Source: Caldilineaceae bacterium SB0662_bin_25
GTDB lineage: Bacteria > Chloroflexota > Anaerolineae > Caldilineales > Caldilineaceae
Reading direction: 5' to 3'
Length of the DNA stretch: 48,346 bases
Assembly: GCA_009840225.1 (NCBI GenBank)
Contig: VXOE01000034.1
Span: 1-48,346, forward strand
A program made the position numbers and the translations under genes. Of the stretch, positions 12,841 to 31,100 are shown piece by piece; positions within the stretch are counted from its first letter, which is position 1; every line of letters starts with the position of its first letter. The notes beneath the pieces were generated by a model. It had not been told where the DNA came from. It ran no database searches and was given only the letters and a program-made list of their open reading frames with translations.

Positions 12841-14802
12841 GTGAGCAGTCTCAATATCAGCAACTTCATCTGGGGTATCGCCGACGATGTGCTGCGCGAC
12901 CATTACGTGCGCGGCAAGTACCGCGACGTCATTCTGCCCATGACCGTTATCCGCCGCCTCGACGCGGTCCTGGAGCCGACCAAGGAGGACGTGCTCGGCA
13001 TGAAGGCGCGGCTGGACGGGGCCGGCATCACCAACCAGGACCAGGCCCTGCGGCAGGCTGCGGGCGAGGCCTTCTACAACACCTCCCCGTTCCGGCTGCG
13101 CGATTTGCGCGCCATCGGCAGGCAACAGCAGCTGCGCGCCAACTTCGAGGCCTACCTGGACGGGTTCTCGCCCAATGTGCAGGAGATCCTGGAAAAGTTC
13201 AGGTTCCGCAACGAGGTGCCGCGGCTGGTGGAGGATGATATTCTGGGCTTTCTGATCGAAAAGTTCCTGGACAGCTCGGTCAACCTCAGCCCGCGGCCGG
13301 TGCTGAACGGGGACGGCAGCGAGCGGCTGCCCGGGCTGGACAACCACAGCATGGGCACCGTCTTCGAGGAGCTGATCCGGCGTTTCAGCGAGGAGAACAA
13401 CGAGGAGGCGGGCGAGCACTTCACGCCGCGCGACGTGGTGGAGATGATGGCGCACCTGATTTTCAAGCCGGTCGCCGAACAGGTGCAGTCAACCACCTAT
13501 CTTGTCTACGACGGGGCCTGCGGCACGGGCGGCATGTTGACGGTGGCGGAGGATACGCTGGGCGAGCTGGCGCGCGGCCAGGGCAAGAAGGCCGAGATCC
13601 ATCTTTACGGCCAGGAGGTCAACCCGGAGACCTACGCCATCTGCAAGGCCGACCTGATTTTGAAGGGGGAGGGGGTCGAGGCGGACAACATCCAGTACGG
13701 CTCGACGCTGTCGGGGGACGCCTTCCCTGCGCACGAGTTTGATTTCATGCTTTCGAACCCGCCTTACGGCAAGAGCTGGAAGAGCGACCTGGAGCGGATG
13801 GGGGGCAAGGCGGGCATGCAGGACACGCGCTTTGTGGCGGCGCATGGCGGCGACCCGGATTTTTCGCTGGTCACGCGCTCGAGCGACGGGCAGATGATGT
13901 TTCTGGCCAACATGGTGAGCAAGATGAAGCGGGACTCGGCGCTGGGCAGCCGGATTGCGGAGGTGCACAACGGCAGCTCGCTTTTCACCGGCGACGCGGG
14001 CCAGGGCGAGAGCAATATCCGGCGCTGGATCATCGAAAACGACTGGCTGGAGGCGATCATCGCGCTGCCGCTCAACATCTTCTACAATACGGGCATCGCG
14101 ACCTACATCTGGGTGTTGAGCAACCGGAAGGCGGCCGCGCGGCGGGGTTATGTGCAGCTGATCGACGCGAGCGAGTGGTACCGGCCGCTGCGCAAGAACC
14201 TGGGCAACAAGAACTGCGAGCTGGCGGCAGAGGATATTGGGCGCATCTGCGACGCCTTTCTGGCCTTCGAGGAGACGGCGCAATCGAAGATTTTCCCCAA
14301 CGAGGCCTTCGGCTACTACAAGTTGAACGTGGCGCGTCCCCTGCGGTTGCCGGGCATCGACCCCGACCGTGCGTACAAGGCGAGCGAGATCAAGCAACTG
14401 CGGGCGCGCGCCGAACCGAGCCCTGAGGCGCCGCCCGTGATTCGCAAGATCCATCGTTCGGGCGTTGCGGCCGACCCGCTGCGGGGCCTTTTTCCCTTGC
14501 AGATCGAGGGAGAGGCGGTGGTGGTCGAGTATGCGCCTGATCCGGATCTGAAGGACAGTGAGCAGGCGCCGTTGCTGGAGGAGGGCGGCATCGAGGGCTT
14601 TCTGCGGCGGGAGGTGCTGCCGTATGCGGCGGACGCGTGGTATGACCCGGGCAGCGTGAAAGTGGGATATGAGATCAGCTTCACGCGCTATTTCTACAGG
14701 CCGCAGCCGCTGCGGGCGCCGGAGGCGATCTGGGCTGATATTCGGGCGTTGGAGCAGGAGGCGGAGGGGTTGCTGGCGGAGATCCGGGGCGGGGCTGACT
14801 GA
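12841..14802 (+). CDS. hsdM: Type I restriction-modification N6-adenine methyltransferase subunit
   Basis: HsdM N-terminal domain (FIWGIADDVLRDHYVRGKYRDVILPMTVIRRLDAVL), YDGACGTGGML, SNPPYGKSWK motifs. Confidence 0.97.
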   Translation: MSSLNISNFIWGIADDVLRDHYVRGKYRDVILPMTVIRRLDAVLEPTKEDVLGMKARLDGAGITNQDQALRQAAGEAFYNTSPFRLRDLRAIGRQQQLRANFEAYLDGFSPNVQEILEKFRFRNEVPRLVEDDILGFLIEKFLDSSVNLSPRPVLNGDGSERLPGLDNHSMGTVFEELIRRFSEENNEEAGEHFTPRDVVEMMAHLIFKPVAEQVQSTTYLVYDGACGTGGMLTVAEDTLGELARGQGKKAEIHLYGQEVNPETYAICKADLILKGEGVEADNIQYGSTLSGDAFPAHEFDFMLSNPPYGKSWKSDLERMGGKAGMQDTRFVAAHGGDPDFSLVTRSSDGQMMFLANMVSKMKRDSALGSRIAEVHNGSSLFTGDAGQGESNIRRWIIENDWLEAIIALPLNIFYNTGIATYIWVLSNRKAAARRGYVQLIDASEWYRPLRKNLGNKNCELAAEDIGRICDAFLAFEETAQSKIFPNEAFGYYKLNVARPLRLPGIDPDRAYKASEIKQLRARAEPSPEAPPVIRKIHRSGVAADPLRGLFPLQIEGEAVVVEYAPDPDLKDSEQAPLLEEGGIEGFLRREVLPYAADAWYDPGSVKVGYEISFTRYFYRPQPLRAPEAIWADIRALEQEAEGLLAEIRGGAD

Positions 14803-14920
14803 ATTACGTTTACAGCGGGCAATCTGCGCTATACTCCGTGCTGCAGGTGCTGGTTTAAGCCTTGTGCCGCAGGTCTCGATAGCCAACAGTGCTCACCGTT
14901 ATGGGTGGTTGTGAATCGAC

Positions 14921-15325
14921 GTGGCGATACCTTTTGAACTAACCATTTACGGCGTTCCCGTGTCCCAGCAAACACGTAACAGGGAACGATTGAGAGAGTG
15001 GAGGCAGGAAGTAAATAACGCCGCAAAGAGGGAATGGACCGAAGCTCCGTTCGATTCCGGGCCGCTCATGGTGACGATCACTTATGTTTACGATGCAGTT
15101 CGTCTCGACGTAGACAACATTCCGAAACCGATTCTGGACGGGTTGGAGCAGGTCGTCTTCCCTGATGATAGACGGATAACCGATATGCTCTGCCGCAGGA
15201 GAGATCTGAAGGACAACCTGCAAATTCAGACCTTTTCGCCTGTCTTAAGTGAAGCGCTTGCAAGGTCTACGCCTTTTGTGCATATTTCTGTGGACCATGC
15301 GCCTGACCAGGGGGTGATAACCTGA
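14921..15325 (+). CDS. RusA-like Holliday junction resolvase
   Basis: DAVRLDVDNIPKPILDGLEQVVFPDDRRITDMLCRRRDLKD matches the RusA DxDN-K-D-DD pattern. Confidence 0.85.
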   Translation: MAIPFELTIYGVPVSQQTRNRERLREWRQEVNNAAKREWTEAPFDSGPLMVTITYVYDAVRLDVDNIPKPILDGLEQVVFPDDRRITDMLCRRRDLKDNLQIQTFSPVLSEALARSTPFVHISVDHAPDQGVIT

Positions 15326-15981
15326 TGAAGGATGTAGAAATCGTTCAAAGGAACTTCATTGAAAAGAAGGCGGCAGAGTACCGCAGCAAAGGCTATGAGG
15401 TAGAGCAAGACTGTCCGCTGGAGTTCCTGCCAGGCTTTGTGGCCGACCTTGTCGTGCGCAAAGATGGGGAAACGAAGGTAGTTGAGGTGAAGTACAGGGC
15501 TTCGCTGGCTGAATCACCAAGAATAAGTGAACTGGCGCAGATTCTTCATGACAAGCCCGGCTGGAGTTTTGAGCTTCTTCTGGTGGGTGAACCGGAGAGA
15601 CTGGATTCGCCAGAGGGCGCGCGTTCTTTTGCGGCAGAGGAGATACGCCAACGTCTTGCCGAAGCGGAGAAGGCTCTTGGGCACGGCTTGGGTGAAGCTG
15701 CTTTTCTGCTGGTCTGGTCGGCTTTTGAAGCTGTCGTCAGGGAACTGATCGCGGCAGAGGGGGTCTCAATTGAGCGTGTCACCCAGTCAGGTTACGTCCT
15801 CGACCAGGCGGTCTATCATGGCGTTATCTCACGCGCGGACTATGACTACCTGGCTGACATGAGAAAATATCGAAACGCCATTGCCCACGGTTTTGATGTC
15901 AACGGGTTCAGCGACGAGAAGGTGACGGAGCTGATTGGGGTCGTTGTGCGGCTGCTGGATTCGGAGCCTGAACTGGTGTAG
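15325..15981 (+). CDS. PD-(D/E)XK nuclease-HEPN fusion protein, copy 1
   Basis: N-terminal FLPGFVADLVVRKDGETKVVEVKYR (D...E-x-K) and C-terminal DMRKYRNAIAHGF (RX4H HEPN motif); start overlaps the rusA-like stop. Confidence 0.8.
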   Translation: MKDVEIVQRNFIEKKAAEYRSKGYEVEQDCPLEFLPGFVADLVVRKDGETKVVEVKYRASLAESPRISELAQILHDKPGWSFELLLVGEPERLDSPEGARSFAAEEIRQRLAEAEKALGHGLGEAAFLLVWSAFEAVVRELIAAEGVSIERVTQSGYVLDQAVYHGVISRADYDYLADMRKYRNAIAHGFDVNGFSDEKVTELIGVVVRLLDSEPELV

Positions 15982-16195
15982 CGGCAGCGGAAGTTCGCTG
16001 GCATCCCCTTTTTTGACCCGCCTGCTGCGCACTTGTGGACCCTCACAGCTGTACTGTCGGGCATGACCGCCGCCTTGTCTGGGTCCTGTAGGCAAAACAA
16101 TCGTTGGATGGATAAGCATAGTTTCCGAACTTATCGCATAATCTCCACCGGATCGGGCGATCTGTACAAGTGCGCCTGACCAGGGGGTTGATATT

Positions 16196-16855
16196 TTGAT
16201 CGAAGACATCGCGATTCTTGAAAGGAAGTTTATCGACAAGAAGGCGGCAGAGTACCGCAGCCGGGGCTATGAAGTTGAGGAAAACTGTGAAGTGGACTTT
16301 CTGCCCGGGTTCCACGTGGACCTGGTTGCGCGCAAAGATGGCGAAGTGCGGGTGATCGAAGTAAAGACCAGAACGTCCCTGGCGTTGACGCCGAAGTTGA
16401 ATGAACTGGCCGAGATTCTGTATAGCAAGCCCGGCTGGAGCTATGACCTGCTGCTGGTGGGCGAACCGGAGAAGCTGGAGTCGCCCGAGGGCGCGCAGCC
16501 TTTTGCCGAAAAGGAGATCCGGCAACGTCTTACCGAGGCGGAGGCCGTTCTTGCGAAGGGTTCGGGTGCGGCCGCTTATCTGCTGGTCTGGTCGGCTTGC
16601 GAGGCCGTGATTCGCAATCTGATCGGGAGCGAGGGGATTGCCATCGCGCGCGTCACGACGGCGGCATACGTCCTCGATATGGCGGTCATGCACGGCATCA
16701 TTGCGCGCGAAGACTACGACTATCTGACCGACATGATGAAGTATCGAAACGCGATTGCCCACGGTTTTGATGTCAACGGGTTCAGCGACGAAAAGGTGAC
16801 GGAGTTGATCGGGGTCGTCCTGCGACTGCTGGATTCGGAGCCTGAACTGGCTTGA
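16196..16855 (+). CDS. PD-(D/E)XK nuclease-HEPN fusion protein, copy 2
   Basis: Paralog of 15325..15981: FLPGFHVDLVARKDGEVRVIEVKTR and DMMKYRNAIAHGF; TTG start. Confidence 0.8.
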   Translation: MIEDIAILERKFIDKKAAEYRSRGYEVEENCEVDFLPGFHVDLVARKDGEVRVIEVKTRTSLALTPKLNELAEILYSKPGWSYDLLLVGEPEKLESPEGAQPFAEKEIRQRLTEAEAVLAKGSGAAAYLLVWSACEAVIRNLIGSEGIAIARVTTAAYVLDMAVMHGIIAREDYDYLTDMMKYRNAIAHGFDVNGFSDEKVTELIGVVLRLLDSEPELA

Positions 16856-17093
16856 AGGCGAGCGGTAGCCGTTCCTTAGTGACAAAGTCCCCGCGATGTT
16901 GAGGTTTCACGGCTTAGACTTCAGTAGGGCACTCCGCTTTTCGAGTAGGTTTCATAAAGGTTGACACCCATGCCGCACGGTTAACCCAGCGGCTGCGAAT
17001 CGCGCGCGAAAGAAGGGCAGTACGGGAGCGGCTACATTAGCGGTAGTCTTTAACATGGTGCGTATTCAGCACATAAAATGATAGTAACATATT

Positions 17094-17121
17094 TTGAAAA
17101 TTTGCACGAATGTGCTATATT
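17094..17121 (+). promoter_or_regulatory. Putative promoter with operator-like dyad upstream of the HNH/pAgo operon
   Basis: TTGAAA-N16-TATATT with GCAC-GAAT-GTGC in the spacer; AGGAG before ATG 17243. Confidence 0.4.
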
Positions 17122-17242
17122 GATCTGTGGTGTGCGGCAGAGGGTCGGAGGTGCGAGGAGATTGGGGCAAGCAAATATCTGACTCCCACCACTTTCATTC
17201 AAGAGACTGAGAACTAGGTTCTTGTATGGCTAGGAGTGACCG

Positions 17243-18532
17243 ATGGCAGAATATAGGATGAGTATCCCGCAGAGAGAGAAAAATATCTTATTCGCAAAGT
17301 CAGGCAATCGTTGTGCGTTTCATAATTGTGAGATGCCAGTGATTGCGGATGAAGGCGACGAAAGCAAACCTCTAGCTGAAATGGCACACATGATTGCGTA
17401 TGCCGACGATGGGCCGAGAGCAGATCCTGCTCTGCCGAAAGAGGAGAAGAATAAAGCGTCAAACTTGATTTTGTTGTGTCCAACCCATCACTCCCTCGTG
17501 GACAAATTTGAGTGTCAATACAATATCCATGTTCTCCGAGAAATGAAGCTGCAGCACGAACGAAAATTTAGCCAATCTCCGCACAGTAGCAAGCCCCCCA
17601 AGCTAGTTACGGAATCCCTACATGCGTCAATTCTTCCTCTATCACACTTGCCTTTTGCTGTTTTTGCCGCTGAAACGGATTACACCAAGGCCAATATCCG
17701 ATCCCTTTTTGACGTGCTGAACAATCAGACCGGAAGAAGGACGCTCTATGCTTTTGAATTGAGGGACAAGAAACTATATACATTTCATGATTTGCGCCAA
17801 GCTGGTAATCCGTTCCGGGGAACTTACGATCAGCCTACCGTTGAAATGTTAAGATCTACGGAATTATGGGATTCACCTGATGAACACAGGTTGTATGTAG
17901 CATTACTCAATCGCACGTTGAGAGGCTTTCTCAGCATTAAGGGTGTAGCGTATGACGACCGCCACTATAGATACTTCTTTTTGCCAGGAGAAAAAGAGCT
18001 AAAGCGGAAATTCACATATAGGAGTCTTTCGGGTAGGCGAACAACTAAGTCAGTCGTGAATAATCCTGTAACACGAGCGACCGGTCAACCTAAATCTTAC
18101 TGGGTTCACCTCGCGGCAAACTTGTCTTTTCATCAAATCGCATCAAGACAATGGGTCTTAACTATTCGTCCGGAAAGGTATCTGACCAGAGATGGGTCTA
18201 GACCCTACTTCCATTCCTCCATTGGAAGAACTGTAACAAGAATCAAATCGACAATGTACAACTGGCAATATCTTCAAGAAATCCAGTTGTGGCGGGAGTT
18301 CATGACAGGTGCAAAACCGAGACAAATTCTAAATTTTGGAAAGCAGTCGATCGTTATAGAGAACAATCTGCTGAAAGCAGGAATTCAGTGGCTGGGGATA
18401 CCGGATGACCAGAAAGACTTCGTGTTTCAGGAGCATCCGGAAGATTTGTTTACCTCATCTGAGATAGACATTTTAGATGAGGATGAGGACGCATTTTATG
18501 GTGAGTTGTTTCTGGAGGAGGATGAGGAATGA
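17243..18532 (+). CDS. HNH nuclease with C-terminal APAZ-like domain (short-Argonaute partner)
   Basis: N-terminal CAFHNCEMPVI...EMAHMIAYADDGPRADP...NKASNLILLCPTHHSLVD (HNH with Cys pairs); about 300 aa C-terminal region including WVLTIRPERYLTRDGSRPYF...NWQYLQEIQLWREFM...GIQWLGIPDD; 4-nt overlap with the PIWI gene. Confidence 0.8.
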   Translation: MAEYRMSIPQREKNILFAKSGNRCAFHNCEMPVIADEGDESKPLAEMAHMIAYADDGPRADPALPKEEKNKASNLILLCPTHHSLVDKFECQYNIHVLREMKLQHERKFSQSPHSSKPPKLVTESLHASILPLSHLPFAVFAAETDYTKANIRSLFDVLNNQTGRRTLYAFELRDKKLYTFHDLRQAGNPFRGTYDQPTVEMLRSTELWDSPDEHRLYVALLNRTLRGFLSIKGVAYDDRHYRYFFLPGEKELKRKFTYRSLSGRRTTKSVVNNPVTRATGQPKSYWVHLAANLSFHQIASRQWVLTIRPERYLTRDGSRPYFHSSIGRTVTRIKSTMYNWQYLQEIQLWREFMTGAKPRQILNFGKQSIVIENNLLKAGIQWLGIPDDQKDFVFQEHPEDLFTSSEIDILDEDEDAFYGELFLEEDEE

Positions 18533-19983
18533 GATTCACTCAAGGGAGATTCCGCGAAAGCTTCAAGTTAGATGCGCCTCATATGGAACTAAGTTGCTTG
18601 TCTGAGCCAGAGCTATCATTTGCCGATGGTACTACTCATACCAATCCTAAAGTCGGGATTCCGCTATATGGACCGAAGTCCTTAAATACTTCTCGTCACA
18701 AGAACGAAATTCATGTTGGATTTGTTGGAGAAGCTGGGGCAATAGAGAATGTCTTGAAATTCATTGACGATTGTGCTGCTGGTGCGAAGGCTGAAGAGAT
18801 CGACAACGGATCGATGCCTTTTCCTGGTATATCGCCAGAAGTCGGGTACAGATTTGAAATAGTATCTTCAGATGAAACCATCGAAAAAATTACAAATGCT
18901 GAACGAGAAGAAATATTAAGTAGCTCGAATCCTGGAGACCAATTCTCAGGGATGCTCACTCTGGTTGAAGATAAGGTTAGGATTCTGTGCGAAAAGGATC
19001 ATCCTGTCGACTATATTTTTATTGTCTTGACTGAGGACATTTACAAGAAGCTGCGAGTCGTCGACGCAATTGATCCCATATCGGGTAAGGGTGGTGTGCA
19101 GAGGGATTTTCGCCGTGCGCTTAAAGCTCGCTTGATGATATATCAGAAGCCAACACAAATCATCAGAGAGTCTACAACGGGATATATAACTACTGATCGT
19201 AATTTGCAGGATTTGGCAACACGTTCTTGGAACATTGTAACAGGAATGTACTTCAAAGTTGGAGGTCTTCCTTGGGGGCCTGTTGGGTTAGAACCAGCTA
19301 CATGTTTTGTAGGGATTAGTTTTTTTCGTCCACTCGGGGAACCAAGATACATGCGGGCAAGCATTGCGCAAGCATTTAATGAGCATGGTGATGGGCTTGT
19401 CCTTCGAGGGCAGAAGTTTAGATGGGACGATGAGTTAGGGAAATCCCCCAATATGCCTTCTCATTTGGCCGAGCAATTGGTCCGGGAAGTGTTGGTGAGA
19501 TACAAGATGGAGTGCAAGCAACTCCCTCGGCGGGTCGTTATTCACAAGTCATCTCGATACACACCCGATGAGAGAGAAGGTTTCAAAGAAGCTCTCACGG
19601 ACATTCCTGAAGTAGATCTGGTGACTGTCAGTTCTTCGGGAGATTTTCGACTGTTTCGAGAAGGAGAATATCCTCCTCTTCGAGGCACCTTGATGCATAT
19701 CGGAGACAACTATCTCTTGTATGCCACGGGATACATACCTGGACTGAAGAAATATCCGCACGGACATGTCCCAGCCCCTCTTCGAATCGTAGATCATTAC
19801 GGCGACACTACAAAAGCGCAGTTGCTGACTGAAATTCTTAGTCTAACAAAGATGAATTGGAATACGGCGAATGTTGATGGAGTTTTTCCTATCACACTGC
19901 GGTTCGCCCGATTAGTCGGTGAAATCCTTCGAGAGATTCCTCCAGATAGAGAGCCAAATCCGAAATACTCATACTACATGTAA
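18529..19983 (+). CDS. Short prokaryotic Argonaute (MID-PIWI), predicted catalytically inactive
   Basis: 484 aa; MID-like LQDLATRSWNIVTGMYFKVGGLPWG; PIWI-like CFVGISFFRPL...LPRRVVIHKSSRYTPDEREGFKEAL...GTLMHIGDNYLLYATGYIPG...PAPLRIVDHYGD...EILSLTKMNWNTANVDGVFPITLRFARLVGEIL. Confidence 0.88.
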   Translation: MRFTQGRFRESFKLDAPHMELSCLSEPELSFADGTTHTNPKVGIPLYGPKSLNTSRHKNEIHVGFVGEAGAIENVLKFIDDCAAGAKAEEIDNGSMPFPGISPEVGYRFEIVSSDETIEKITNAEREEILSSSNPGDQFSGMLTLVEDKVRILCEKDHPVDYIFIVLTEDIYKKLRVVDAIDPISGKGGVQRDFRRALKARLMIYQKPTQIIRESTTGYITTDRNLQDLATRSWNIVTGMYFKVGGLPWGPVGLEPATCFVGISFFRPLGEPRYMRASIAQAFNEHGDGLVLRGQKFRWDDELGKSPNMPSHLAEQLVREVLVRYKMECKQLPRRVVIHKSSRYTPDEREGFKEALTDIPEVDLVTVSSSGDFRLFREGEYPPLRGTLMHIGDNYLLYATGYIPGLKKYPHGHVPAPLRIVDHYGDTTKAQLLTEILSLTKMNWNTANVDGVFPITLRFARLVGEILREIPPDREPNPKYSYYM

Positions 19984-20004
19984 GCAAGCACAGCTTCACT
20001 TTAT

Positions 20005-20856
20005 TTGACCACTTCGCACTCTTGGAACTCGTCACCACTGGAGAAAAACGTACAATTGACAAGAGGTCCTAAACGAATTAACCGCCCGAGTATCACCTAC
20101 CACTCTCACATATATGACTTGGCCATGAGAGCATCTGGCGAGGCAATGGCTCTCGGGCTGGAACTGTCACGGTATGTGGCCGACCATCCCACTTCAAGCG
20201 ACAGAGACGATTCAAGGCAGGAATTGGGGAGTTTACATAATCGGGCCGCGACTTTGAGACAGGCCGTTGACAAACTACTGTCGGCTCTCCCTCCTGATGC
20301 GGGCATCAATTTACACTCTTTGAGAAGGCACCTCAATTGGATTGATCGCCGGCTGGAAGAGAATGCCCCTTCGTTATGCGTGCAGGATCCAATTGACATT
20401 GTGCGCAGCGACATACCAGGAGTCCTCAAACAATTTGACAAATGGTATGCCAGTCAATCGGGCCTTGATCAAGACCTCAGCGCCCGGCTCAAGCCATTCA
20501 TAGAATCGGGGCAACTGGATGCCGCGGTCAGAGCGGCATGGCCCATTTTCAAGACGAGGATGGTCGATCGGTTTGGTATTTCCGAGGCGGTCGACGGTCA
20601 CAAGCTCGTTGTTGCGATATTTGGTCCCAACGGCGCCACGGCAGGACGGTTGCCGGACGAAAAACGCGAAGGGTATCTGAACCTTTTCAAGGGGCTATAC
20701 GCACTCAGCCGCAACCCGCTATCGCACAATGACATTCGTCCCAACCCGGCTGAGGCAGAAGCTGCTCTCTTGTTGATCAGCACCACACTAACGAAGGTCG
20801 AGAAACTTCCAGCCGAGAAGCGTCCCTCGAAGGAAGGAGCGGGGGTCACTTCTTGA
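20005..20856 (+). CDS. TIGR02391/Ymh-type HEPN-like protein
   Basis: C-terminal GYLNLFKGLYALSRNPLSHND (RNxxxH) as in Hypoth_Ymh proteins; stop overlaps the hsdS start. Confidence 0.75.
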   Translation: MTTSHSWNSSPLEKNVQLTRGPKRINRPSITYHSHIYDLAMRASGEAMALGLELSRYVADHPTSSDRDDSRQELGSLHNRAATLRQAVDKLLSALPPDAGINLHSLRRHLNWIDRRLEENAPSLCVQDPIDIVRSDIPGVLKQFDKWYASQSGLDQDLSARLKPFIESGQLDAAVRAAWPIFKTRMVDRFGISEAVDGHKLVVAIFGPNGATAGRLPDEKREGYLNLFKGLYALSRNPLSHNDIRPNPAEAEAALLLISTTLTKVEKLPAEKRPSKEGAGVTS

Positions 20857-22211
20857 TTGCAAATCTCCCACCCTACTCTGCCTACAAGCCCTCTGGCGTC
20901 GAATGGCTTGACGATGTGCCAGCGCAATGGGAGGTGCGTCCACTCAAACACTGGGTGGGAATAAATGAGACGGTCTTATCCGAAGCAACCGATTCTGACT
21001 TTGGTTTTGATTATTTGGAAATCGGCGCAGTCAGCGCCGGTGTGCTGACTGATGAACCTCGTCGAATCCGCTTCGGAGACGCACCGTCTCGAGCCAGACG
21101 CGTAGTAAGTAGAGGAGACACAATCGTTTCAACAGTGCGCTCTTACCTGAAAGCGGTATGGTTCGCAAATGAAACGGATAGTGTTCTGATTTGTTCAACA
21201 GGATTTGCAGTTCTTACGCCACGTCAGGGGACTATTCCCCAATACGTAGGCTATTTGGTTCAGAGTTGTTCATTTATCGATCAAATGACAGCTGAATCAG
21301 TTGGAATTGCCTATCCCGCCATTTCTGAAGGCAGGTTCAGTTCATCTCGCGTTTGTATCCCTCCCCTCGCCGAACAGCGCGCCATCGCCCGCTACCTAGA
21401 CCACGTGGACCGGCGTATCCAGCGCTACATTGAGGCCAAGGAGAAGCTGATCGCGCTACTGCAGGAGGCCCGCCAAGCCACTATCCAGCGGGCCGTCACG
21501 CGTGGTCTTGACCCCGGCGTTCCTCTCAAGCCTTCCGGCGTCGACTGGCTGGGGGATGTGCCCGCGCATTGGGAGGTGCGGCGGCTCCGGACTCTTGGCG
21601 AAGCGATAATCGGCCTTACCTATTCCCCGCAAGATGTCGTGGACGAAGAAGAAGGGACTCTCGTTCTGCGGGCTTCTAACATTTCTGAGGGGAGGATTGT
21701 GTACGGGGATAATGTTTATGTCAGATGTTCAGTACCTGACCGGCTTGTTGCTCAAGTTGGTGACATTCTCATCTGTTCCAGAAGCGGTAGCCGAGCATTG
21801 ATAGGAAAGAATGCCAGGATTGATTCAGCTTTGTCCGGGGCAACATTCGGTGCATTCATGACCATCTTTAGAAGCAAGCACAATGACTACCTACACTGTA
21901 TCTTCAATTCCAAACTGTTTGAATATCAGTCCGGTGCATTCCTCACTTCCACTATCAACCAACTTACCCTGGGCATCCTCAACAACTTCAAGATTCCGTG
22001 GCCCCCTCTCGCGGAACAGAAGGAGATAGCCGCCCACGTCGACAAAACCACCGCCGGCATTGACGCGGCCATCGACAACGCCCGACGCCAAGTCGGGTTT
22101 ATGATCGAATACCGTGCCAGCCTGATCGCGCACGTGGTCACCGGCAAGCTGGATGTGCGCGCCGCGGCCGAGCACCTGCCGCAAGAAGCTCGCGAGCTGG
22201 CGGTCAGTTGA
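20853..22211 (+). CDS. hsdS: Type I restriction-modification specificity subunit
   Basis: Two TRD/central-repeat halves: KPSGVEWLDDVPAQWEVRPLK and KPSGVDWLGDVPAHWEVRRL; PPLAEQRAIARYLD and PPLAEQKEIAAHVD. Confidence 0.97.
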   Translation: MIANLPPYSAYKPSGVEWLDDVPAQWEVRPLKHWVGINETVLSEATDSDFGFDYLEIGAVSAGVLTDEPRRIRFGDAPSRARRVVSRGDTIVSTVRSYLKAVWFANETDSVLICSTGFAVLTPRQGTIPQYVGYLVQSCSFIDQMTAESVGIAYPAISEGRFSSSRVCIPPLAEQRAIARYLDHVDRRIQRYIEAKEKLIALLQEARQATIQRAVTRGLDPGVPLKPSGVDWLGDVPAHWEVRRLRTLGEAIIGLTYSPQDVVDEEEGTLVLRASNISEGRIVYGDNVYVRCSVPDRLVAQVGDILICSRSGSRALIGKNARIDSALSGATFGAFMTIFRSKHNDYLHCIFNSKLFEYQSGAFLTSTINQLTLGILNNFKIPWPPLAEQKEIAAHVDKTTAGIDAAIDNARRQVGFMIEYRASLIAHVVTGKLDVRAAAEHLPQEARELAVS

Positions 22212-22500
22212 CGACGAAGCCCGCAAACCCGTACACTTGCGCACAGTCCGATTCCACCACTTTATCGACCTCAAGGTTGTTATGTTCGAGCCGGGCGGCG
22301 GACCGTCAGACGAGCGAATCAATCAAACAGAGGGTGTGCCCAAGATGACTGCGGGCCGGGCCGCGCCGGCCGGCCTGATGGACCGCTATACACGCGCGCT
22401 GCTGGACCCGTTCGTGACCCTGCTGGAGGTGCACAAGCTCCTGTATTTCATGCAGGCGTCCGGCGAGCCGCTGGGGCTCAGGTACCGGAAGGCGGCCTAA
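22212..22500 (+). pseudogene. darG: DarG (macrodomain antitoxin) internal fragment
   Basis: FIDLKVVMFEPGGGPSDERINQTEGVPKMTAGRAAPAGLMDRYTRALLDPFVTLLEVHKLLYFMQASGEPLGLRYRKA ends exactly at the IS boundary; no 5' macrodomain and no darT seen. Confidence 0.75.
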
Positions 22501-23324
22501 GAAGCTGTTTGAAAAGAGTCAATTGGTGCCAGGCGGCGTACCATGAGACGACTCATAGCGATATGGATCAAGGCGACACTGCTTTCGGACAGTCGTTCAT
22601 AGTCTTTGCAGAGGCGACGATTGAGGCCAAGCCAAGCGAAGGTGCGTTCCACCACCCAACGACGGGGCAATACGGAGAAACCCTTTTGCTCTTGCGGGCG
22701 CAGGACAGGTTGGAGGCGAAAGCGAAAAGGCTGCGCAACCCATCTCTGCAAAGAGCCGCGATGGGCGCCGTCAACCCAGATGAGACGCAGTTTCCGGCCG
22801 AAACCGCAGTCTCGTCTGAGCAGTTGCCGTGCCCCATCGCGGTCAGGCAGGTCGGCAGCAGTGACCAGGACGGCCAATGTGAGTCCCAGCGTATCGACGA
22901 GAAGATGCCGTTTCCGTCCTGTGATGCGTCTGCCGCCATCGCAGCCTCGCACACCTGCCGGTGTATGGCCAGTCTTGACTGTCTGACTGTCGATACTGCC
23001 AGCCGTTGGATGCTTGTGTCGTCCGACTCGATGACGAACCCGCACTCTGAGCGTGTCGTGCAACCTGCGCCAGGCGCCATCGTCCCGCCACTGCCTGAAG
23101 TAGGTGTAAACGCTCTGCCACGGCGGAAAGTCACTCGGCAGCATCCGCCACTGGATGCCACCCACAGTCAGGTAGAGCATGGCATCAACCACCAGGCGCA
23201 TATCCAGGCTGCGTGGTCGCCCACCCGGTTTGGCTGCGGGAATCAGATGCTGGATAATAGACCACTGGCTGTCAGTCAAATCTGTTGGGTATCGTTTTGT
23301 TTTCACAAAAACTACGTATCCCAT
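22497..23324 (-). CDS. IS5-family transposase (DDE)
   Basis: RYPTDLTDSQWSIIQHLIPAAKPGGRPRSLDMRLVVDAMLYLTVGGIQWRMLPSDFPPWQSVYTYFRQW...SIDSQTVKTG...RRWVVERTFAWLGLNRRLCKDYE. Confidence 0.97.
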   Translation of the reverse strand: MGYVVFVKTKRYPTDLTDSQWSIIQHLIPAAKPGGRPRSLDMRLVVDAMLYLTVGGIQWRMLPSDFPPWQSVYTYFRQWRDDGAWRRLHDTLRVRVRHRVGRHKHPTAGSIDSQTVKTGHTPAGVRGCDGGRRITGRKRHLLVDTLGLTLAVLVTAADLPDRDGARQLLRRDCGFGRKLRLIWVDGAHRGSLQRWVAQPFRFRLQPVLRPQEQKGFSVLPRRWVVERTFAWLGLNRRLCKDYERLSESSVALIHIAMSRLMVRRLAPIDSFQTAS

Positions 23325-23363
23325 AATTTGGCCGACAGCCTTTACTTTTCAAACAGCCTCTTA
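22498..23363 (-). mobile_element. IS5-family insertion sequence
   Basis: Terminal inverted repeats TAAGAAGCTGTTTGAAAAG (22498..22516) and revcomp TAAGAGGCTGTTTGAAAAG (23345..23363) flank a transposase ORF. Confidence 0.9.
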
Positions 23364-23447
23364 GACGCATAGGGAAACGCGAAGCTTGTTGCTAGTCCGG
23401 CGAGGTAAGCCTTTCTATCCAGAAGACATGGATCGGTGGGGTCGCAG

Positions 23448-24854
23448 ATGTTGACACCCGAACAAGCAATACCTCTCACTGCCTCCGGCGAGTCCGAGAC
23501 GCTGGAGTTCAAGAGCACTACAGGCGCGCGCCGGGAGGCGGCCATGACGGTGTGCGCCTTCCTGAACCAGGACGGCGGGCAGGTGTTGTTCGGCGTAACA
23601 CCGGTCGGGGCCGTGGTGGGGCAGCAGGTCGGCGAGCACACCATCGAGGAGTTGAGCGCCGAGCTGCAGCGCATCGAGCCTCCGGCGTTCCCGACAGTGG
23701 AAAGGGTCCCCGTGGACGGCGGCCGGGAGGTCATCATAGTGACCGCTGCCCAGGGCGCGTCGAGACCGTATACCTATCGAGGCAGCGCCTACCGGCGGGT
23801 CGGGAACACCACTCTGGCAATGTCCGCCGACGAGTACAACCGGATGCTCTTCGAGCGGATGCATAGCGAACAGCGCTGGGAGAACCAGCCCGCCGGGTGG
23901 TCAGTCGACGATCTCGACGCGGCCGAGATTCGACGGACGGTCGCGGAGGCGGTCCGGCGCGGGCGACTTGAGGAGCCTGCAGGTGGAGACCCGTCCGACC
24001 TGCTGCGGGGACTCGGTCTGCTGCGTGACGGGGTGCTCCTTCGGGCGGCGGCGGTGCTGTTCGGCAGTTCGGAGCGGCTGGAGGTCGAGATGCCGCAGTG
24101 CCTGCTGCGCGTCGCCCGCTTCCGCGGGACCGACCGGATGGAGTTCCTGGACAATCGCCAATTCAACGGCAACGCGTTCACGCTCCTCGCGAGCGCAGAG
24201 CGGTTCCTGCGCGACACACTGCCCATCGCCGGGCGGTTCGAGCAGGACCGCTTCGAGCGGATCGACGAGCCGCTGTATCCGCCCCTGGCCACGCGCGAGG
24301 CGCTGGCGAACGCCCTGTGCCACCGCGACTACTCCATCGGCGGCGGCTCGGTTGGCATAGCGATCTACGACGACCGGCTGGAAATCAGTTCCTCCGGCTC
24401 CCTGCACTTCGGCCTGACGCCAGAGAAGCTGTTCGAGCCGCATGAGTCAAGGCCGTGGAACCCGTTGATCGCCCGCACCTTCTACCGGCGCGGGATTATC
24501 GAGGAGTGGGGTAGCGGAACACTTAAGATGGCAGACTTGGCGAGCAGGGCCGGGCTCCCGGTCCCGGAGATCGACGATGACGGCGGGGCTGTCACTGTGC
24601 GGTTCCGGCGCGGTCAGTTCGTTCCGCTGCCGACCCCTGGCGGCATAAGCGAGGCTGAAGCGCGGCGGGAGATGATACTCGCGCTGCTGGACAGAACGAG
24701 GGATGGTTTGACGCGCCGTGAGCTTCATGCGCGTTTGGGTTCTGGCGTGACTGAACGGCAGGTGCGGAGGGCGCTTGAGGAGTTGAGGGACAGAGGGTTG
24801 ATCATCTCCACAAATCGCGGGCCGTTGACGCGCTGGAAGCAGCGGGCGCGATAG
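23448..24854 (+). CDS. AlbA/Schlafen-type (AlbA_2) ATP-binding protein with C-terminal HTH
   Basis: GESETLEFKSTTGARREAAMTVCAFLNQDGGQVLFGV...; HRDYSIGGGSVGIAIYDDRLEISSSGSL...NPLIARTFYRRGIIEEWGSGTLKM. Confidence 0.93.
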   Translation: MLTPEQAIPLTASGESETLEFKSTTGARREAAMTVCAFLNQDGGQVLFGVTPVGAVVGQQVGEHTIEELSAELQRIEPPAFPTVERVPVDGGREVIIVTAAQGASRPYTYRGSAYRRVGNTTLAMSADEYNRMLFERMHSEQRWENQPAGWSVDDLDAAEIRRTVAEAVRRGRLEEPAGGDPSDLLRGLGLLRDGVLLRAAAVLFGSSERLEVEMPQCLLRVARFRGTDRMEFLDNRQFNGNAFTLLASAERFLRDTLPIAGRFEQDRFERIDEPLYPPLATREALANALCHRDYSIGGGSVGIAIYDDRLEISSSGSLHFGLTPEKLFEPHESRPWNPLIARTFYRRGIIEEWGSGTLKMADLASRAGLPVPEIDDDGGAVTVRFRRGQFVPLPTPGGISEAEARREMILALLDRTRDGLTRRELHARLGSGVTERQVRRALEELRDRGLIISTNRGPLTRWKQRAR

Positions 24855-25039
24855 GGGCGCGATGGGAGTCAGACAGGGGGCCGATAGGGGCGCGATGGGA
24901 GGCCTATTGGAGCGCAGATGGGGGCGAAACAGGGTCCACAGCCATGACTGAGCTGAAGATCACTGAGGCCATCACCGTCCAGTTTCCGATGGTACAGTTC
25001 CGGGCGCGGAGTGGAAGGTCTCGTCTGCAGGATGGTGAA

Positions 25040-25063
25040 GGGCGCCCACAAGGGGCGCCCCAC
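25040..25063 (-). repeat. R1 REP-like hairpin (minus orientation)
   Basis: Revcomp GTGGGGCGCCCCTTGTGGGCGCCC. Confidence 0.7.
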
Positions 25064-25165
25064 AGGCGGCTGCGCTGGGTATCAGCCGCCGGGCGGCGGT
25101 CCGCCGGCTCGCAGATGCGCCAGTTCCTTTACAGATTTTGCCCGTTATGCTAGGATTTGTTTCCG

Positions 25166-25315
25166 TAGGGGTTACCCCTAGTTAACCCTTATGTCTTAAT
25201 CTCGCCTGCCGGCCGCCAGCCGGTGCCCAAGGCCCGCCAACCGGCGGGCTTTGCGGTTTTTTGGGGTTTGATCTCTTTTTGCGATCTGTTACCATGGGCG
25301 GTGAGATTAAGACAT
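25166..25315. promoter_or_regulatory. Dyad-rich control region: TAGGGGT-T-ACCCCTA palindrome, 13-bp inverted repeat ATGTCTTAATCTC/GAGATTAAGACAT, and internal terminator-like hairpin
   Basis: Palindrome 25166..25180; IR arms 25191..25203 and 25303..25315; GCCCGCCAACCGGCGGGC...GGTTTTTTGGGG between them. Confidence 0.5.
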
Positions 25316-25423
25316 CGCCCTGGCAGGCGACGATAGACTAGGAAAGCCCCGTGCTATATCTTCGCATCCCTACATCTTCGGACCTTACCTGCCTGCCGCG
25401 GCCGACCAGCTGTGGAGGCAGAG

Positions 25424-26410
25424 ATGACCTACCGTTACCGCCAGGTAATTGAAGAGGGCGGCGGCCTGACCTATCTTCGCCACGAGTTTGGCCTGTCCCC
25501 GTCGGAACTGTTTGTACTGGACAACCTGATCAAGCACGACCACCCCCGGCATGGTTGTTTCCCCAAGCAGGAGACGATCGCGCACGAGACCGGTCTACCT
25601 CTGCGCACCGTCAAAGCGGCGCTGAAAAGGCTGGCGGGCAAAGGCCTGATCGAGAGGGAAAAGCTGCCTTACACGGACTCCAGAGGCCGGAAGCGACCGG
25701 GGAAGATACACCACTACCGCTTTGCCGACGATGTTTCCTATGCATGCATTCTGGCGTGGGAGCGGTTCAAAGGCGAACGTGAGGAAGCGCTTACCGAAGC
25801 CATGATCGAGGAGATTGAAACCGAGCTTGATCGGTGCAGAAACGACACCAATCGGGCAGATGAATCGGTCCCTGCCGCGCCTGATAGATGCAGAAACGGC
25901 ACCAATCGGGAAAGTGAAGTTATCGCTGCCGTGCCCGATAGGTGCAAGAACGGCACCCATATTGGTGCAAAAGCGGCACCTGTAGGCAGGTGCAGGAATG
26001 GCACCCGGGCAGGTGCAGAAACGGCACTTGAGAAGTTAGAAGTAGAAGTAGCAAGTAAGAATGGGAAGAGAGATTCGCGATCCGCGGCGGCTGGCGCCGC
26101 TGTGGAGAGATTGTCTATGGATGCTGTTGGGTCAGGGAATGGAGGAGCGGTGCCAGCGCAAAAGGGGGAGCCGGTTCCGGAAGGGAAGCGCTGCGCATGC
26201 GGCGGGGAGATACCGCCGGAGAAGGCGGATACGCGTGACGAGTGCCGCGATTGCTACACTGCGCGGGTGCGGCGCGAAGAGAAGGAACGCAGGGCGGAAA
26301 AGGATGAGCAGAGACGGCTCGGCTTCCTGGAGGGGCGGGACAGGGGCCGGCCGCAACGCGGTCTGTTCAGTAGGGGCGAGGCGACTGGCCCGCTGCCGGC
26401 CGGGGGCTGA
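25424..26410 (+). CDS. Winged-helix, replication-initiator-like protein with iteron-encoded linker and C-terminal zinc ribbon
   Basis: HTH_36-like CFPKQETIAHETGLPLRTVKAALKRLAGKGLIERE; RCRNGT repeats; CACGGEIPPEKADTRDECRDCYTARVRREEKER. Confidence 0.65.
   Translation: MTYRYRQVIEEGGGLTYLRHEFGLSPSELFVLDNLIKHDHPRHGCFPKQETIAHETGLPLRTVKAALKRLAGKGLIEREKLPYTDSRGRKRPGKIHHYRFADDVSYACILAWERFKGEREEALTEAMIEEIETELDRCRNDTNRADESVPAAPDRCRNGTNRESEVIAAVPDRCKNGTHIGAKAAPVGRCRNGTRAGAETALEKLEVEVASKNGKRDSRSAAAGAAVERLSMDAVGSGNGGAVPAQKGEPVPEGKRCACGGEIPPEKADTRDECRDCYTARVRREEKERRAEKDEQRRLGFLEGRDRGRPQRGLFSRGEATGPLPAGG
25833..26028 (+). repeat. Six intragenic 17-bp iteron-like repeats GGTGCAGAAACGGCACC
   Basis: Copies start at 25833, 25887, 25941, 25964, 25989, 26012; each has GGTGC...GCACC dyad character. 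Confidence 0.85.
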
Positions 26411-26418
26411 ACAGGGGA

Positions 26419-26443
26419 GGGCACCCGCAAGGGGCGCCCCTAC
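26419..26443 (-). repeat. R1 REP-like hairpin (minus orientation)
   Basis: Revcomp GTAGGGGCGCCCCTTGCGGGTGCCC. Confidence 0.7.
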
Positions 26444-26567
26444 AGATCAGGCAGCCTGATCGCGCGCGTGGTTACCGGTGAGCTGGATGTGCGGGCGACG
26501 GCCGAGCGGGACCGGCACGGAACTGTCTTGACAGTAAGGATATACTCAAGAAGCAAGGCAAGGGCGT

Positions 26568-26861
26568 ATGAAGAAGAGGAATTTTGAATTGACAGAGAAG
26601 CAGCGCGCTATGCTCAAGGCGCTGGAAGAGATGCCTGACGACCGGATCGACACGAGCGACATTCCCGAAGTGCTTGACTGGTCGAACGCGCGGCGCGGTG
26701 TCTTCTACCGTCCCGTGAAGCAGCAGATCACGTTGCGTATCGACGCGGACATCATCGCATGGTTCAAGGCTCGCGCCGAGGGCAGCCGCGGCTACCAGAC
26801 CGACATCAACCGCGCTCTGCGCCGGCACGTTGAGCGCTGCGAAAGGGAGATGACCAGATGA
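26568..26861 (+). CDS. BrnA-like antitoxin
   Basis: KQQITLRIDADIIAWFKARAEGSRGYQTDINRALRRHVE. Confidence 0.8.
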   Translation: MKKRNFELTEKQRAMLKALEEMPDDRIDTSDIPEVLDWSNARRGVFYRPVKQQITLRIDADIIAWFKARAEGSRGYQTDINRALRRHVERCEREMTR

Positions 26862-27085
26862 CTGACTGGGAATCGTGCAAGGCTGTCGAACGGAACCCGG
26901 GTAAACTCGGGGGGGCCTGGGTGTTTCAAGGCACGCGTGTGCCTGTGTCCGCCCTGTTTGAGAATCTTCGTGACGGCGCCACCGTTGAGCAGTTTCTGGC
27001 GTGGTTTCCCGGTGTTGAGAAATGGATGGTCGAAGCTGCACTGGAGCACGAAGTGAAAGCCTTGACAGCGTCAGCTCGTCCATGA
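26858..27085 (+). CDS. DUF433 (VapB-like) antitoxin
   Basis: VERNPGKLGGAWVFQGTRVPVSALFENLRDGATVEQFLAWFPGVEKWMVEAALEH. Confidence 0.88.
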   Translation: MTDWESCKAVERNPGKLGGAWVFQGTRVPVSALFENLRDGATVEQFLAWFPGVEKWMVEAALEHEVKALTASARP

Positions 27086-27399
27086 AGATTCTATTTGATC
27101 AGGGGACGCCGGCCCCCCTGCGCCGGTATCTGGTCGGGCATTCGGTGGATACCGCCTATGAACGAGGATGGTCTGACTTGCGCAACGGCGATCTGCTGGC
27201 AAGAGCCGAGATGGATGGGTACGAACTACTGATCACTACAGATCAAAACATGCGGTACCAGCAGAATCTTTCCGGAAGCCGTTTGGGGATTCTCGTTCTG
27301 CTTTCGACTTCGTGGCCGCGTATCCAACTGCGAATTGGGGATGTTCAGGCCGTTGTCGATGGGATGCAGCCCGGGGCCTATAGGGAAGTTCCCATCTAG
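27082..27399 (+). CDS. DUF5615 PIN-like toxin
   Basis: MKILFDQGTPAPLRRYLVGHSVDTAYERGWSDLRNGDLLARAEMDGYELLITTDQNMRYQQNL; ATGA overlap with the DUF433 gene. Confidence 0.88.
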   Translation: MKILFDQGTPAPLRRYLVGHSVDTAYERGWSDLRNGDLLARAEMDGYELLITTDQNMRYQQNLSGSRLGILVLLSTSWPRIQLRIGDVQAVVDGMQPGAYREVPI

Positions 27400-27472
27400 C
27401 GTTTTGTTCAGGCTTTGCAGCCTGAATTCGGGAACCTCATTTCTATCCTTCAAAACGAGCTCAACGCCAGCC

Positions 27473-27703
27473 ATGACCAGACGAGGCCAGCAGATTACAT
27501 TACAGCCGGAAGTGCTGCGCTGGGCGCGCGAGCGGGCCGGTCTTTCCCCGCAGCAGCTTGCAAAGAAGATGAAGGTGAAGCCGGAACGCGTGTCAGAGTG
27601 GGAGATCACGGGCAAGATCAGCATCGCCCAGGCGGACAGGCTGGCTGACCTGAGGGGGAATGCCGTTGAATGGATGCCGGAAGAGATGGGGATTGCCCTT
27701 TGA
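27473..27703 (+). CDS. XRE-family HTH protein (antitoxin-like)
   Basis: ITLQPEVLRWARERAGLSPQQLAKKMKVKPERVSEWEITGKISIAQADRLAD. Confidence 0.75.
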   Translation: MTRRGQQITLQPEVLRWARERAGLSPQQLAKKMKVKPERVSEWEITGKISIAQADRLADLRGNAVEWMPEEMGIAL

Positions 27704-28162
27704 GTCGACAGGTGCAGCCGTTGTTCGTACTGGACGCCGATGTGTTTAAGTCAGCATTAACAGGGTATTTGACGAGCAAAAATATCCGGGCGGTCTGGTT
27801 CAGTGGGCGACGGCCGGTCACACACGGTGCGGGCTGTCCGTCCGGTATTGACGATCAATGGGATGACTGCCAGCGCCACTCACTGATTCTCCAGAGATGC
27901 TAAGAATGTCACTGAAGTAAGTATGAACATATATGCATATGAGGTTTCAGTGGATGAGTGCGGCGAGGGGAGCGGGCTGTGTCCGGGTGTTCGCTCATAT
28001 AGGGCTACCTGACTTATCCGCCCGACAAGATTCGCCAGACGGTGTCTGGCAGATAAGATGCCATTGCAATCTCGGGGCGGCCGGGAGAGTTCCTGGCCGC
28101 GGCGCTGGATCGAGCGCCGCAGGTGATGTCGGAGTATAGTTTGAAAGAGTGGAGAGCTGGAC

Positions 28163-31100
28163 GTGACCCCTACTGACACTTCCGAAGGCGGGCTTGAAAG
28201 CCTCATCTGTGCGGCGTTGACGGGTCAGCCGTGCGACGCGGCGGGCGCGGGCAGGGTGGGCGAGCGGCCGGCCGCTTACGGCGCGGGCTGGCTTTGCGGG
28301 GATGCGCAGGAGTACGACCGGGAGCACTGTGTCGACCTGGCGCAGCTGTCCGCCTTTCTCTACGCTACGCAGCCCGATACGGCCGGTCTGCTGGGCCTGG
28401 AGGAGGACGGCCCGACGCGGCGCAAGTTCCTGGCACGGCTGCAGGGGGAGGTCACGAGGCGGGGGACGGTGGAGCTGCTGCGCAAGGGGCTCCGGCACGG
28501 GCCGCACCGCATCGACCTGTTCTACGGCACGCCGTCGCCGGGCAACAGGACGGCGGCGCGCCTTTACAGTCAGAACCGCTTCTCGGTTACCCGCCAGCTG
28601 CGCTACAGCAACGACAACAGCCAGCTGGCGCTGGACCTCTGCCTGTTTGTCAACGGCCTGCCGGTCGCTACCTTTGAGCTGAAGAACAGCCTGACGAAGC
28701 AGACGGTGGATGACGCCGTCGAGCAGTACAAACGCGACCGCAACCCGAGGGAGCGGCTGTTCGAGCTGGGGCGCTGCCTGGCGCATTTTGCGGTGGACGA
28801 CCACGAAGTGCGGTTCTGCACCAGGCTGGCGGGCAAGGCGTCGTGGTTCCTGCCTTTCAACCAGGGGTGGAACGACGGCGCGGGCAATCCACCCAACCCC
28901 AACGGGCTGAAGACCGACTACCTGTGGAAGCAGGTCCTCACGCGCGAGAGCCTCACGAACATTTTGGAGAACTATGCCCAGGTCGTCACCTCGAAGGAGG
29001 AGAAGACGGGGCGCACGCGGCGCGAGCAGCTATGGCCGCGTTACCACCAGCTGGACGTGGTGCGCAAGCTGCTGGCGGACGCGTCTGAGAACGGGATTGG
29101 CGCCAGGTATCTGATCCAGCATTCGGCGGGCAGCGGCAAGTCGAACTCGATCGCGTGGCTGGCGCACCAGCTGATCGGCCTCGAACGGGAGGGCGCGGTC
29201 CTCTTCGATTCGGTGGTCGTCGTCACCGACCGCACAGTTCTCGACAAGCAGATCAAGGACACGATCAAACAGTTCGCGCAGGTGGGCGCGGTCGTCGGCC
29301 ACGCGCAGAGCTCCGGCCATCTGCGCACGCTGCTGCAGGAGGGCAAGCGCATCGTCATCTCTACGGTGCAGAAGTTCCCCTTCATCCTGGACGCGATCGG
29401 CAACGAGCACCGCGGCAGCAGGTTCGCGATCATCATCGACGAGGCGCACTCGAGCCAGGGCGGCCGCAATGCGGCGTCGATGGCGATGGCGCTGGGCGAG
29501 ATGCAGACGGAAGCGGAGGAGGAGGAAGAGACGACCGAGGACAGGATCAACCGGCTGATGGAATCGAAGAAGATGCTGCGCAACGCCAGCTACTTCGCGT
29601 TCACGGCCACACCGAAGAACAAGACGCTGGAGATCTTCGGCAGGCCCGTACCCGAAGGGGGCGCGACCAGGCATCTGCCGTTCCATGCGTATACGATGAA
29701 GCAGGCGATCCAGGAGGGTTTCATCATCGACGTGCTGGCGCATTATACGCCTGTGAGCAGCTACTACCGGCTGGTCAAGACGGTGGCGGGGGACCCGGAG
29801 TTCGACGTCCAGCGGGCGGGCAAGAAGCTGCGCCGCTACGTCGAGGACAACGAGCACGCCATCCGCCTGAAGGCGGAGATCATGGTCGACCATTTCCATG
29901 AGCAGGTGGCGGGTCTGCAGAAGATCGGCGGCCGGGCCCGGGCGATGGTGGTCACGAGCAGCGTACAGCGCGCGATCAGCTACTTTTTCGCGATCCAGAC
30001 GTACCTCGAGGCGCGCAAGAGCCCGTACCGGGCCATCGTCGCATTTTCGGGCGAGCATGAGCATATGGGTGCGAAGGTCACGGAGGCTTCACTCAACGGC
30101 TTTTCTGCCAACTGGATCGCGGCGCGGATCCAGGAGGAGCCCTACCGTTTCCTGGTGTGCGCGGACAAGTTTCAGACCGGGTATGACGAACCGCTGCTCC
30201 ACACGATGTACGTGGACAAGCCGCTGGCGGGCGTGAAGGCGGTGCAGACGCTGTCGCGGCTCAACCGGTCGCACCCCAAGAAGCACGACGCCTTCGTGCT
30301 GGATTTCGCCAACGAGGCCGATACGATCGAGGCCGCGTTCAGCGACTACTACCGGACCACGGTGCTGGCGGAGGAGACCGACCCGGACAAGCTGCATGAT
30401 CTCAAGGCGGCGCTGGACGGCTACCAGGTCTACGGCCCGGAGCAGGTGGAGGAACTGGTCGAGCGCTACCTGGCAGGCGCGGACCGCGACCGGCTCGATC
30501 CGATCCTGGACGCGTGTGTGGCGGTCTACCGGGAGGAGCTGGACGAGGACGGGCAGGTCGATTTCAAAGGGAAGGGCAAGGCGTTTCTGCGCACCTACGC
30601 CTTCCTGGCGGCGATCCTGTCCTATACGGACGAGGGGTGGGAGAAGCTGTCCATCTTCCTCGAATTTCTGGTTCCCAAGCTGCCGGCGCCGGTTGAGGAC
30701 GACCTGGCCAAGGGGATTCTGTCAGCGATCGACATGGACAGCTACCGCGTGGAGAAGCAGGCGGTGCGAGCGATCCGGCTGGCGGACGAGGACGCGGAGA
30801 TCGGGCCTGTGCCGACCGACGGCGGCGGATACAGGCCGGAAGCGGAGATGGAGCGGTTGTCCAACATTCTGCGGGAGTTCAACGACCGTTTCGGCAACAT
30901 CGAGTGGCAGGACAAGGACAAGATCGAGAAGATCATCACCGAGGAGCTGCCGGCAATGGTTGCCGAGGACCGGGCGTATCAGAACGCGAAAGCCAACTCC
31001 GACAGGCAGAACGCGCGCATCGAGCATGACAGGGCGCTGGAGCGGGCGATGACGGGGCTGCTCGCCGACCATACGGAGCTGTTCAAGCAGTTCAGCGACA

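Follow-up and report, generated by a model that had tools for sequence, protein, structure and literature searches.

A predicted HNH-associated short prokaryotic Argonaute (SPARHA) pair within a type I restriction locus of a Caldilineaceae bacterium

HNH-type nucleases in the operons of prokaryotic Argonautes (pAgos) were already described in PMC6299218, and PMC10810196 documents short pAgos with HNH-APAZ partners. Protein Data Bank (PDB) entry 9om4, released on 2025-10-22, holds the filament form of Acidithiobacillus caldus short prokaryotic argonautes, HNH-associated (SPARHA), and carries the name that the initial annotation had correctly given to HNH-APAZ pAgo systems. In NbaSPARDA, residues R183, K187, and K240 hold the guide phosphates and N232 contacts the second base (PMC12205087). 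The stretch of DNA analyzed here (the window) comprises 48,346 nucleotides of contig VXOE01000034.1 from Caldilineaceae bacterium SB0662_bin_25 and contains a two-gene pair that is, judging from sequence matches and modeled structures, a SPARHA system. Because HNH-APAZ partners are present in the literature and the 9om4 structure is public, the pair adds a member to SPARHA of a kind that is already known. It is an intact, well-conserved addition to a family for which the PDB search turned up one solved complex.

The first gene of the pair (positions 17243 to 18532, forward strand) encodes a putative HNH-APAZ effector protein of 429 amino acids (aa), and the second (18529 to 19983, forward strand) encodes a short pAgo of 484 aa (MID-PIWI) that is predicted to be noncleaving. 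Both open reading frames (ORFs) start with ATG and are intact, as the initial annotation had reported, and the stop of the effector gene and the start of the Argonaute gene share a 4-nucleotide (nt) overlap, ATGA, that was read from the sequence (18529 to 18532, forward strand). This overlap, which is common to several relatives of the pair, suggests translational coupling of the effector and the Argonaute. Each of the two proteins matched one chain of the solved SPARHA complex 9om4 almost from end to end, and the E values of the family and PDB matches (1e-36 to 1e-145) exclude chance.

Residues 19 to 484 of the Argonaute matched PADLOC short-pAgo models (pAgo_I, E = 1.2e-145). The best solved relative was 9om4_B (E = 3.2e-128; residues 22 to 484; 45% identity), followed among PDB sequence matches by the Argonautes of SPARDA and SPARTA. 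The architecture consists of MID and PIWI domains without a PAZ domain, and the MID/PIWI structure that had been anticipated for this ORF was recovered in an AlphaFold model (mean pLDDT, 85.4; pTM, 0.84), for which 9om4_B was the first Foldseek match (E = 5.1e-51; TM scores of 0.89/0.92). In an alignment with TtAgo, for which the reference sequence was taken from pTT27, catalytic residue D546 aligned with S341 and D478 fell at or near S264. Neither position is acidic, in agreement with the earlier reading of both as serine, and acids were also missing at the positions of E512 and D660, where the alignment is less secure. Because the catalytic acids of PIWI are lost, the Argonaute is predicted not to slice.

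Residues that hold the guide in NbaSPARDA were compared with the Argonautes of the HNH clade. R183, K187, and K240 correspond to R195, K199, and K243 of the window Argonaute, which were invariant in 33 of 33 HNH-clade rows, and N232 corresponds to N235, which was kept in 32 of 33. MID-like and PIWI-like signatures had been quoted in the initial annotation; the letters are present, with the caveat that LQDLATRSWNIVTGMYFKVGGLPWG (residues 226 to 250), which includes the guide-phosphate lysine K243, is the end of the MID domain at the MID-PIWI junction. Guide binding by the MID pocket is well supported by inference from these conserved residues. The aromatic first-base pocket of NbaSPARDA (W159 and W201) was not conserved, so the 5' base preference of the guide cannot be predicted. 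Residues at the PIWI-PIWI filament contacts of NbaSPARDA were mostly changed (R287 to D288, E253 to G253, and E360 to P360), and the geometry of the SPARDA filament is therefore not transferable to the window pair.

The partner protein contains an HNH nuclease domain at approximately residues 1 to 110 (17243 to 17572, forward strand), which matched Pfam HNH_2 above the gathering score and whose residues are conserved in relatives, and an APAZ domain at approximately residues 120 to 400 (17600 to 18442, forward strand). The latter was identified by PADLOC APAZ-type models (residues 105 to 390; E = 5e-36), by 9om4_A (residues 6 to 415; E = 9.3e-78; 34% identity), by the DREN-APAZ chain of NbaSPARDA, 9jsb_D (residues 125 to 357; E = 7e-10), and by Foldseek. 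The first Foldseek match of the AlphaFold model (mean pLDDT, 83.5) was 9om4_A (E = 4.1e-25; TM scores of 0.58/0.90; 273-residue chain), and the APAZ chains of SPARDA and SPARTA followed, in line with the APAZ fold that had been proposed for the C terminus. The APAZ domain is expected to bind the Argonaute and to line part of the guide-target channel. The deposited sequence of 9om4_A has 435 residues; since only a 273-residue chain was aligned by Foldseek, the structure match lends no direct support to activation of HNH by assembly.

In a 28-row alignment of relatives, C24, C29, H49, N74, C79, H83, and D87 were invariant and H82 was nearly so. The HNH and zinc-ligand residues are intact in the window protein and near-invariant across more than 30 relatives, and the HNH/Cys motif is present as it was first written out. 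By analogy with the family, C24, C29, C79, and H82 would be the zinc ligands and H49, N74, and H83 the HNH triad. Together, the relatives separate fixed residues (HNH, zinc ligands, and MID phosphate pocket) from variable ones (SPARDA filament interface and first-base pocket).

Approximately residues 5 to 111 of the HNH-APAZ protein were matched by PADLOC "Effector" models and by SAVED chains in the PDB, and this resemblance of the HNH domain sequence to Cap5/SAVED effectors favors an alternative in which the protein belongs with CBASS effectors of the Cap5 type (HNH-SAVED) and would be activated not through the Argonaute but by a cyclic nucleotide. However, the C-terminal part matched APAZ and not SAVED, which rules out a Cap5 identity, no cyclase gene was recognized among the neighboring genes examined, and the Argonaute gene is coupled to the HNH gene by the overlap; the probability of the alternative is negligible. 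No match to a TIR or SIR2 domain was found in the protein, and PADLOC SIR2-APAZ models aligned to its APAZ part only.

Scanning of 84,980 species genomes produced 502 related stretches, the best 80 of which were kept. Within these 80, more than 30 loci had a partner of the HNH-APAZ family immediately 5' of the Argonaute, in hosts that included Chloroflexota, Planctomycetota, Verrucomicrobiota, Acidobacteriota, Actinomycetota, Nitrospirota, Myxococcota, and Gemmatimonadota, among others. A tree of the Argonautes (quick search, with support by SH-aLRT only) was rooted on the SPARTA Argonaute of the same genome as outgroup. The window Argonaute and all complete HNH-linked Argonautes, including 9om4_B, formed a clade (SH-aLRT, 99) in which 32 rows come with APAZ proteins of the HNH-APAZ family and three are variants with effector-associated domain 10 (EAD10), and this clade was apart from a 33-row group holding NbaSPARDA (9jsb_A). 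The rows nearest to the window Argonaute were the Chloroflexota loci L016 and L017 (69 to 70% identity), and L018. A sister branch of the SPARHA clade (L048, L050 to L053, L059, L060, L066, and L070, from Myxococcota, Acidobacteriota, Planctomycetota, and Bathyarchaeota) had Argonaute partners with weak APAZ similarity and without the HNH motif. The outgroup belongs to a SPARTA-like pair elsewhere in the genome (L014:10470-13341; G000:C198), in which a second short Argonaute, 33% identical to the window Argonaute over residues 191 to 483, follows a protein with a TIR domain (Pfam TIR_2, E = 2e-20); genes for an SNF2-type helicase and an ATPase are located nearby.

Among 400 sampled genomes of the same phylum, just one other (G198) had a full-length relative of the HNH-APAZ protein, and this copy (L005/L015:182-2827; G198:C36) is broken, with an in-frame stop in the HNH-APAZ gene and the Argonaute split between two frames. 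Damage to both genes of such a close relative would fit a window pair that is likewise decaying or nonfunctional, a relic cassette within the restriction locus. In contrast, both ORFs of the window pair have their full length, no HNH or MID pocket residue is missing, and the 4-nt overlap is kept, which makes a relic very unlikely.

The three EAD10 variants were found in cyanobacteria (L042:3694-7416; L036:1-2855 with L115; L040:7757-10407 with L117) and were nested inside the HNH clade (SH-aLRT of 99 for the three). Their APAZ protein starts with EAD10 and not HNH, a match that was strong in L036 and L042 and below the cutoff in L040. In L042, a caspase gene (Peptidase_C14, E = 9.5e-19) with what look like the catalytic His and Cys motifs (SGHGW and DSCHAEG) and an EAD10-like tail lies 5' of the EAD10-APAZ gene, with a 4-nt overlap. 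A caspase 79% identical to that of L042 was found in Iningainema tapete, 74 bases from a contig end, and the L036 contig begins with a stretch encoding the matching caspase C terminus, just 5' of EAD10-APAZ, so a break in the assembly has probably divided the same operon. Stenomitos has a more distant caspase approximately 4 kb upstream on the same contig and a closer relative on another contig. This gene order suggests a candidate three-gene defense system (caspase, EAD10-APAZ, and short pAgo) in which a caspase would be triggered by an Argonaute, and the replacement of HNH by EAD10 looks like an exchange of effectors on a shared Argonaute-APAZ chassis. In a literature search outside of which preprints and most subscription papers lay, EAD10 was not found with an Argonaute, nor was any effector-associated domain found with APAZ systems. 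If this reading is true, guide-triggered proteolysis by an Argonaute becomes directly testable.

The pair is richer in AT than its surroundings, as had been noted at the outset. The HNH-APAZ gene has a GC content of 0.446 (GC3, 0.46) and the Argonaute gene one of 0.451 (GC3, 0.41), versus a window mean of 0.594 and a GC3 of 0.88 in both hsdM and hsdR of the same locus. The pair was at least 8 GC points below its flanks in 10 of the 33 relative loci measured, and at least 15 points below in 4, and it matched the host in others; foreign composition is thus common but not universal in the family. Host-unlike composition is consistent with frequent lateral acquisition within the family, and the low GC content of the window pair with recent acquisition. 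Target-site repeats flanking the pair were searched for and not found. No relatives of the Argonaute were detected in viral contigs scanned with it and no match in the phage records searched, and there is therefore no sign that the pair is phage cargo. On plasmids, matches to the HNH protein covered the HNH domain only, and the plasmid Argonaute matches listed were at most 37% identical and annotated as SMEK, DUF4365, or SIR2 or unnamed, none of them as HNH. A weak promoter-like site lies in an AT-rich leader 5' of the pair (17094 to 17121, forward strand), in a region where the site count is at chance level, and scans for promoters and terminators gave results at chance level.

The pair is located between the genes of a type I restriction locus on the forward strand: hsdM (12841 to 14802), the gene for the specificity subunit HsdS (20853 to 22211), and an ORF for HsdR (28163 to 31180) that has homologs in genomes of the same genus. 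Other cargo downstream of hsdM includes a RusA-like gene (14921 to 15325, forward strand) and two AHJR-REase/HEPN-like paralogs (15325 to 15981 and 16196 to 16855, forward strand). In each of these tandem paralogs, an AHJR-like REase domain is accompanied by a weak match to HEPN, and the two share 300 nt at 71% identity from a local duplication. A Hypoth_ymh gene (20005 to 20856, forward strand) follows the pair. It was considered as a member of the Argonaute operon and rejected, since it is directly 5' of hsdS in two same-genus genomes without the pair; its 4-nt overlap with hsdS and its position in these relatives place it with the restriction locus. Between hsdS and hsdR is an IS5-type element, labeled as such from a reading of the sequence (22497 to 23364, reverse strand; transposase ORF, 22497 to 23324), with 20-bp terminal inverted repeats (22497 to 22516 and 23345 to 23364). 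Farther downstream, two ORFs (41725 to 42978 and 44031 to 45383) have identical C-terminal portions over a long proline/threonine-rich, repeat-bearing stretch and look like a recent duplication of a gene for a secreted or surface protein.

Four genomes of the same genus have hsdM at 77 to 84% identity to that of the window, with HsdR homologs (1,692 to 1,832 bits) downstream of it, and differ in the gene content of the hsdM-hsdS interval. The genes found there encode Thoeris ThsB, a SoFic protein, an HNH protein, a trypsin-like protease, and KAP NTPases similar to PDC-S20/PifA models, and genes of the AHJR-like and ymh types turn up again in some of these genomes. In all five same-genus genomes, the window's included (12841 to 31180, with L108, L109, L110, and L111), the differing interval genes are mostly low in GC. 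Because the same hsdM and hsdR enclose other genes, several of them defense related, the interval is considered a defense cargo slot, and the same-genus comparison points to the type I restriction locus as a slot for the exchange of defense systems. DarTG2 sits between hsdS and hsdR of a type I locus (PMC12255303); with defense systems inside type I loci already known, the arrangement in the window is a variation on a known theme. The pair might further be coregulated with type I restriction and back it up, for example by drawing its guides from the products of HsdR cleavage or by acting once restriction has been blocked, and the hsdM-hsdS interval would then be a dedicated backup slot, filled in relatives by other abortive systems; this is distinctly improbable. 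A conserved linkage of SPARHA to type I restriction was ruled out by the flanks of the HNH-APAZ loci examined (approximately 9 kb or less on each side), in which no homologs of the window-type hsdM, hsdS, or hsdR were found.

The Argonaute and the HNH-APAZ protein should form a heterodimer, in which the noncutting, guide-carrying Argonaute probably detects DNA of an invader and turns on its DNA-cutting partner. NbaSPARDA, TmuRE-Ago, and the 9om4 filament entry serve as analogs for guide use, an RNA guide, a DNA target, filament assembly and assembly-dependent activation, collateral cutting, and population-level protection. The MID pocket, from its residues, would hold a short 5'-phosphorylated guide, most likely RNA, and this guide would base pair with matching DNA of the invader inside the Argonaute-APAZ channel, where the PIWI domain, given the missing acids in the alignment, would not cut. 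Target pairing would lead the complexes to assemble as a filament, as in 9om4 and SPARDA, and assembly would juxtapose the HNH domains and activate them for sequence-nonspecific DNA cutting. Growth arrest or death of the cell, as in the abortive infection first proposed for the pair, or loss of the invader, would then protect the population. The main rival is that the Argonaute guides HNH to cut the recognized target DNA itself, in which case neither collateral cutting nor cell death would follow. In its favor, the HNH fold is that of a metal-dependent DNase, and APAZ tethers the effector to the guide-target channel; however, the related nuclease-armed short pAgo systems that have been studied, NbaSPARDA (PMC12205087) and TmuRE-Ago (PMC10810196), cut collaterally after target recognition, and target-specific cutting is considered unlikely. 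Comparison with relatives indicates that the variable hsdM-hsdS interval took up the pair as a low-GC cassette. The best explanation as a whole, a SPARHA heterodimer with guide-triggered filament formation and collateral HNH activity, encoded by a cassette acquired in the hsdM-hsdS slot, is very probably correct.

Compared with A. caldus SPARHA (9om4), the window pair has the same two-protein layout and domains, full-length homology of both chains, and the same Argonaute clade, but identities are 34% (HNH-APAZ) and 45% (Argonaute), the window Argonaute falls in a separate subclade with Chloroflexota loci, and the pair sits inside a type I restriction locus. SPARDA (NbaSPARDA, 9jsb/9jsz; XauSPARDA, 9qcc) is likewise a heterodimer of a short pAgo and an APAZ nuclease with conserved MID guide-phosphate residues, whereas its effector is DREN/DUF4365, a PD-(D/E)xK-fold nuclease, rather than HNH, its Argonautes are outside the HNH clade, and the filament-interface residues differ. 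SPARTA (TIR-APAZ) and SPARSA (SIR2-APAZ) share a short pAgo with an APAZ partner and gave fold matches; their effectors are NAD consuming, whereas that of the window is a predicted nuclease. CBASS Cap5 (HNH-SAVED) has a related HNH domain with a SAVED sensor domain and no Argonaute, in contrast to the APAZ domain of the window protein, in which SAVED matches were mainly confined to the HNH stretch. DarTG2 (PMC12255303) is also a second defense system within an hsd locus, but it occupies the hsdS-hsdR slot, whereas the slot in the window is hsdM-hsdS and its cargo is a short Argonaute system.
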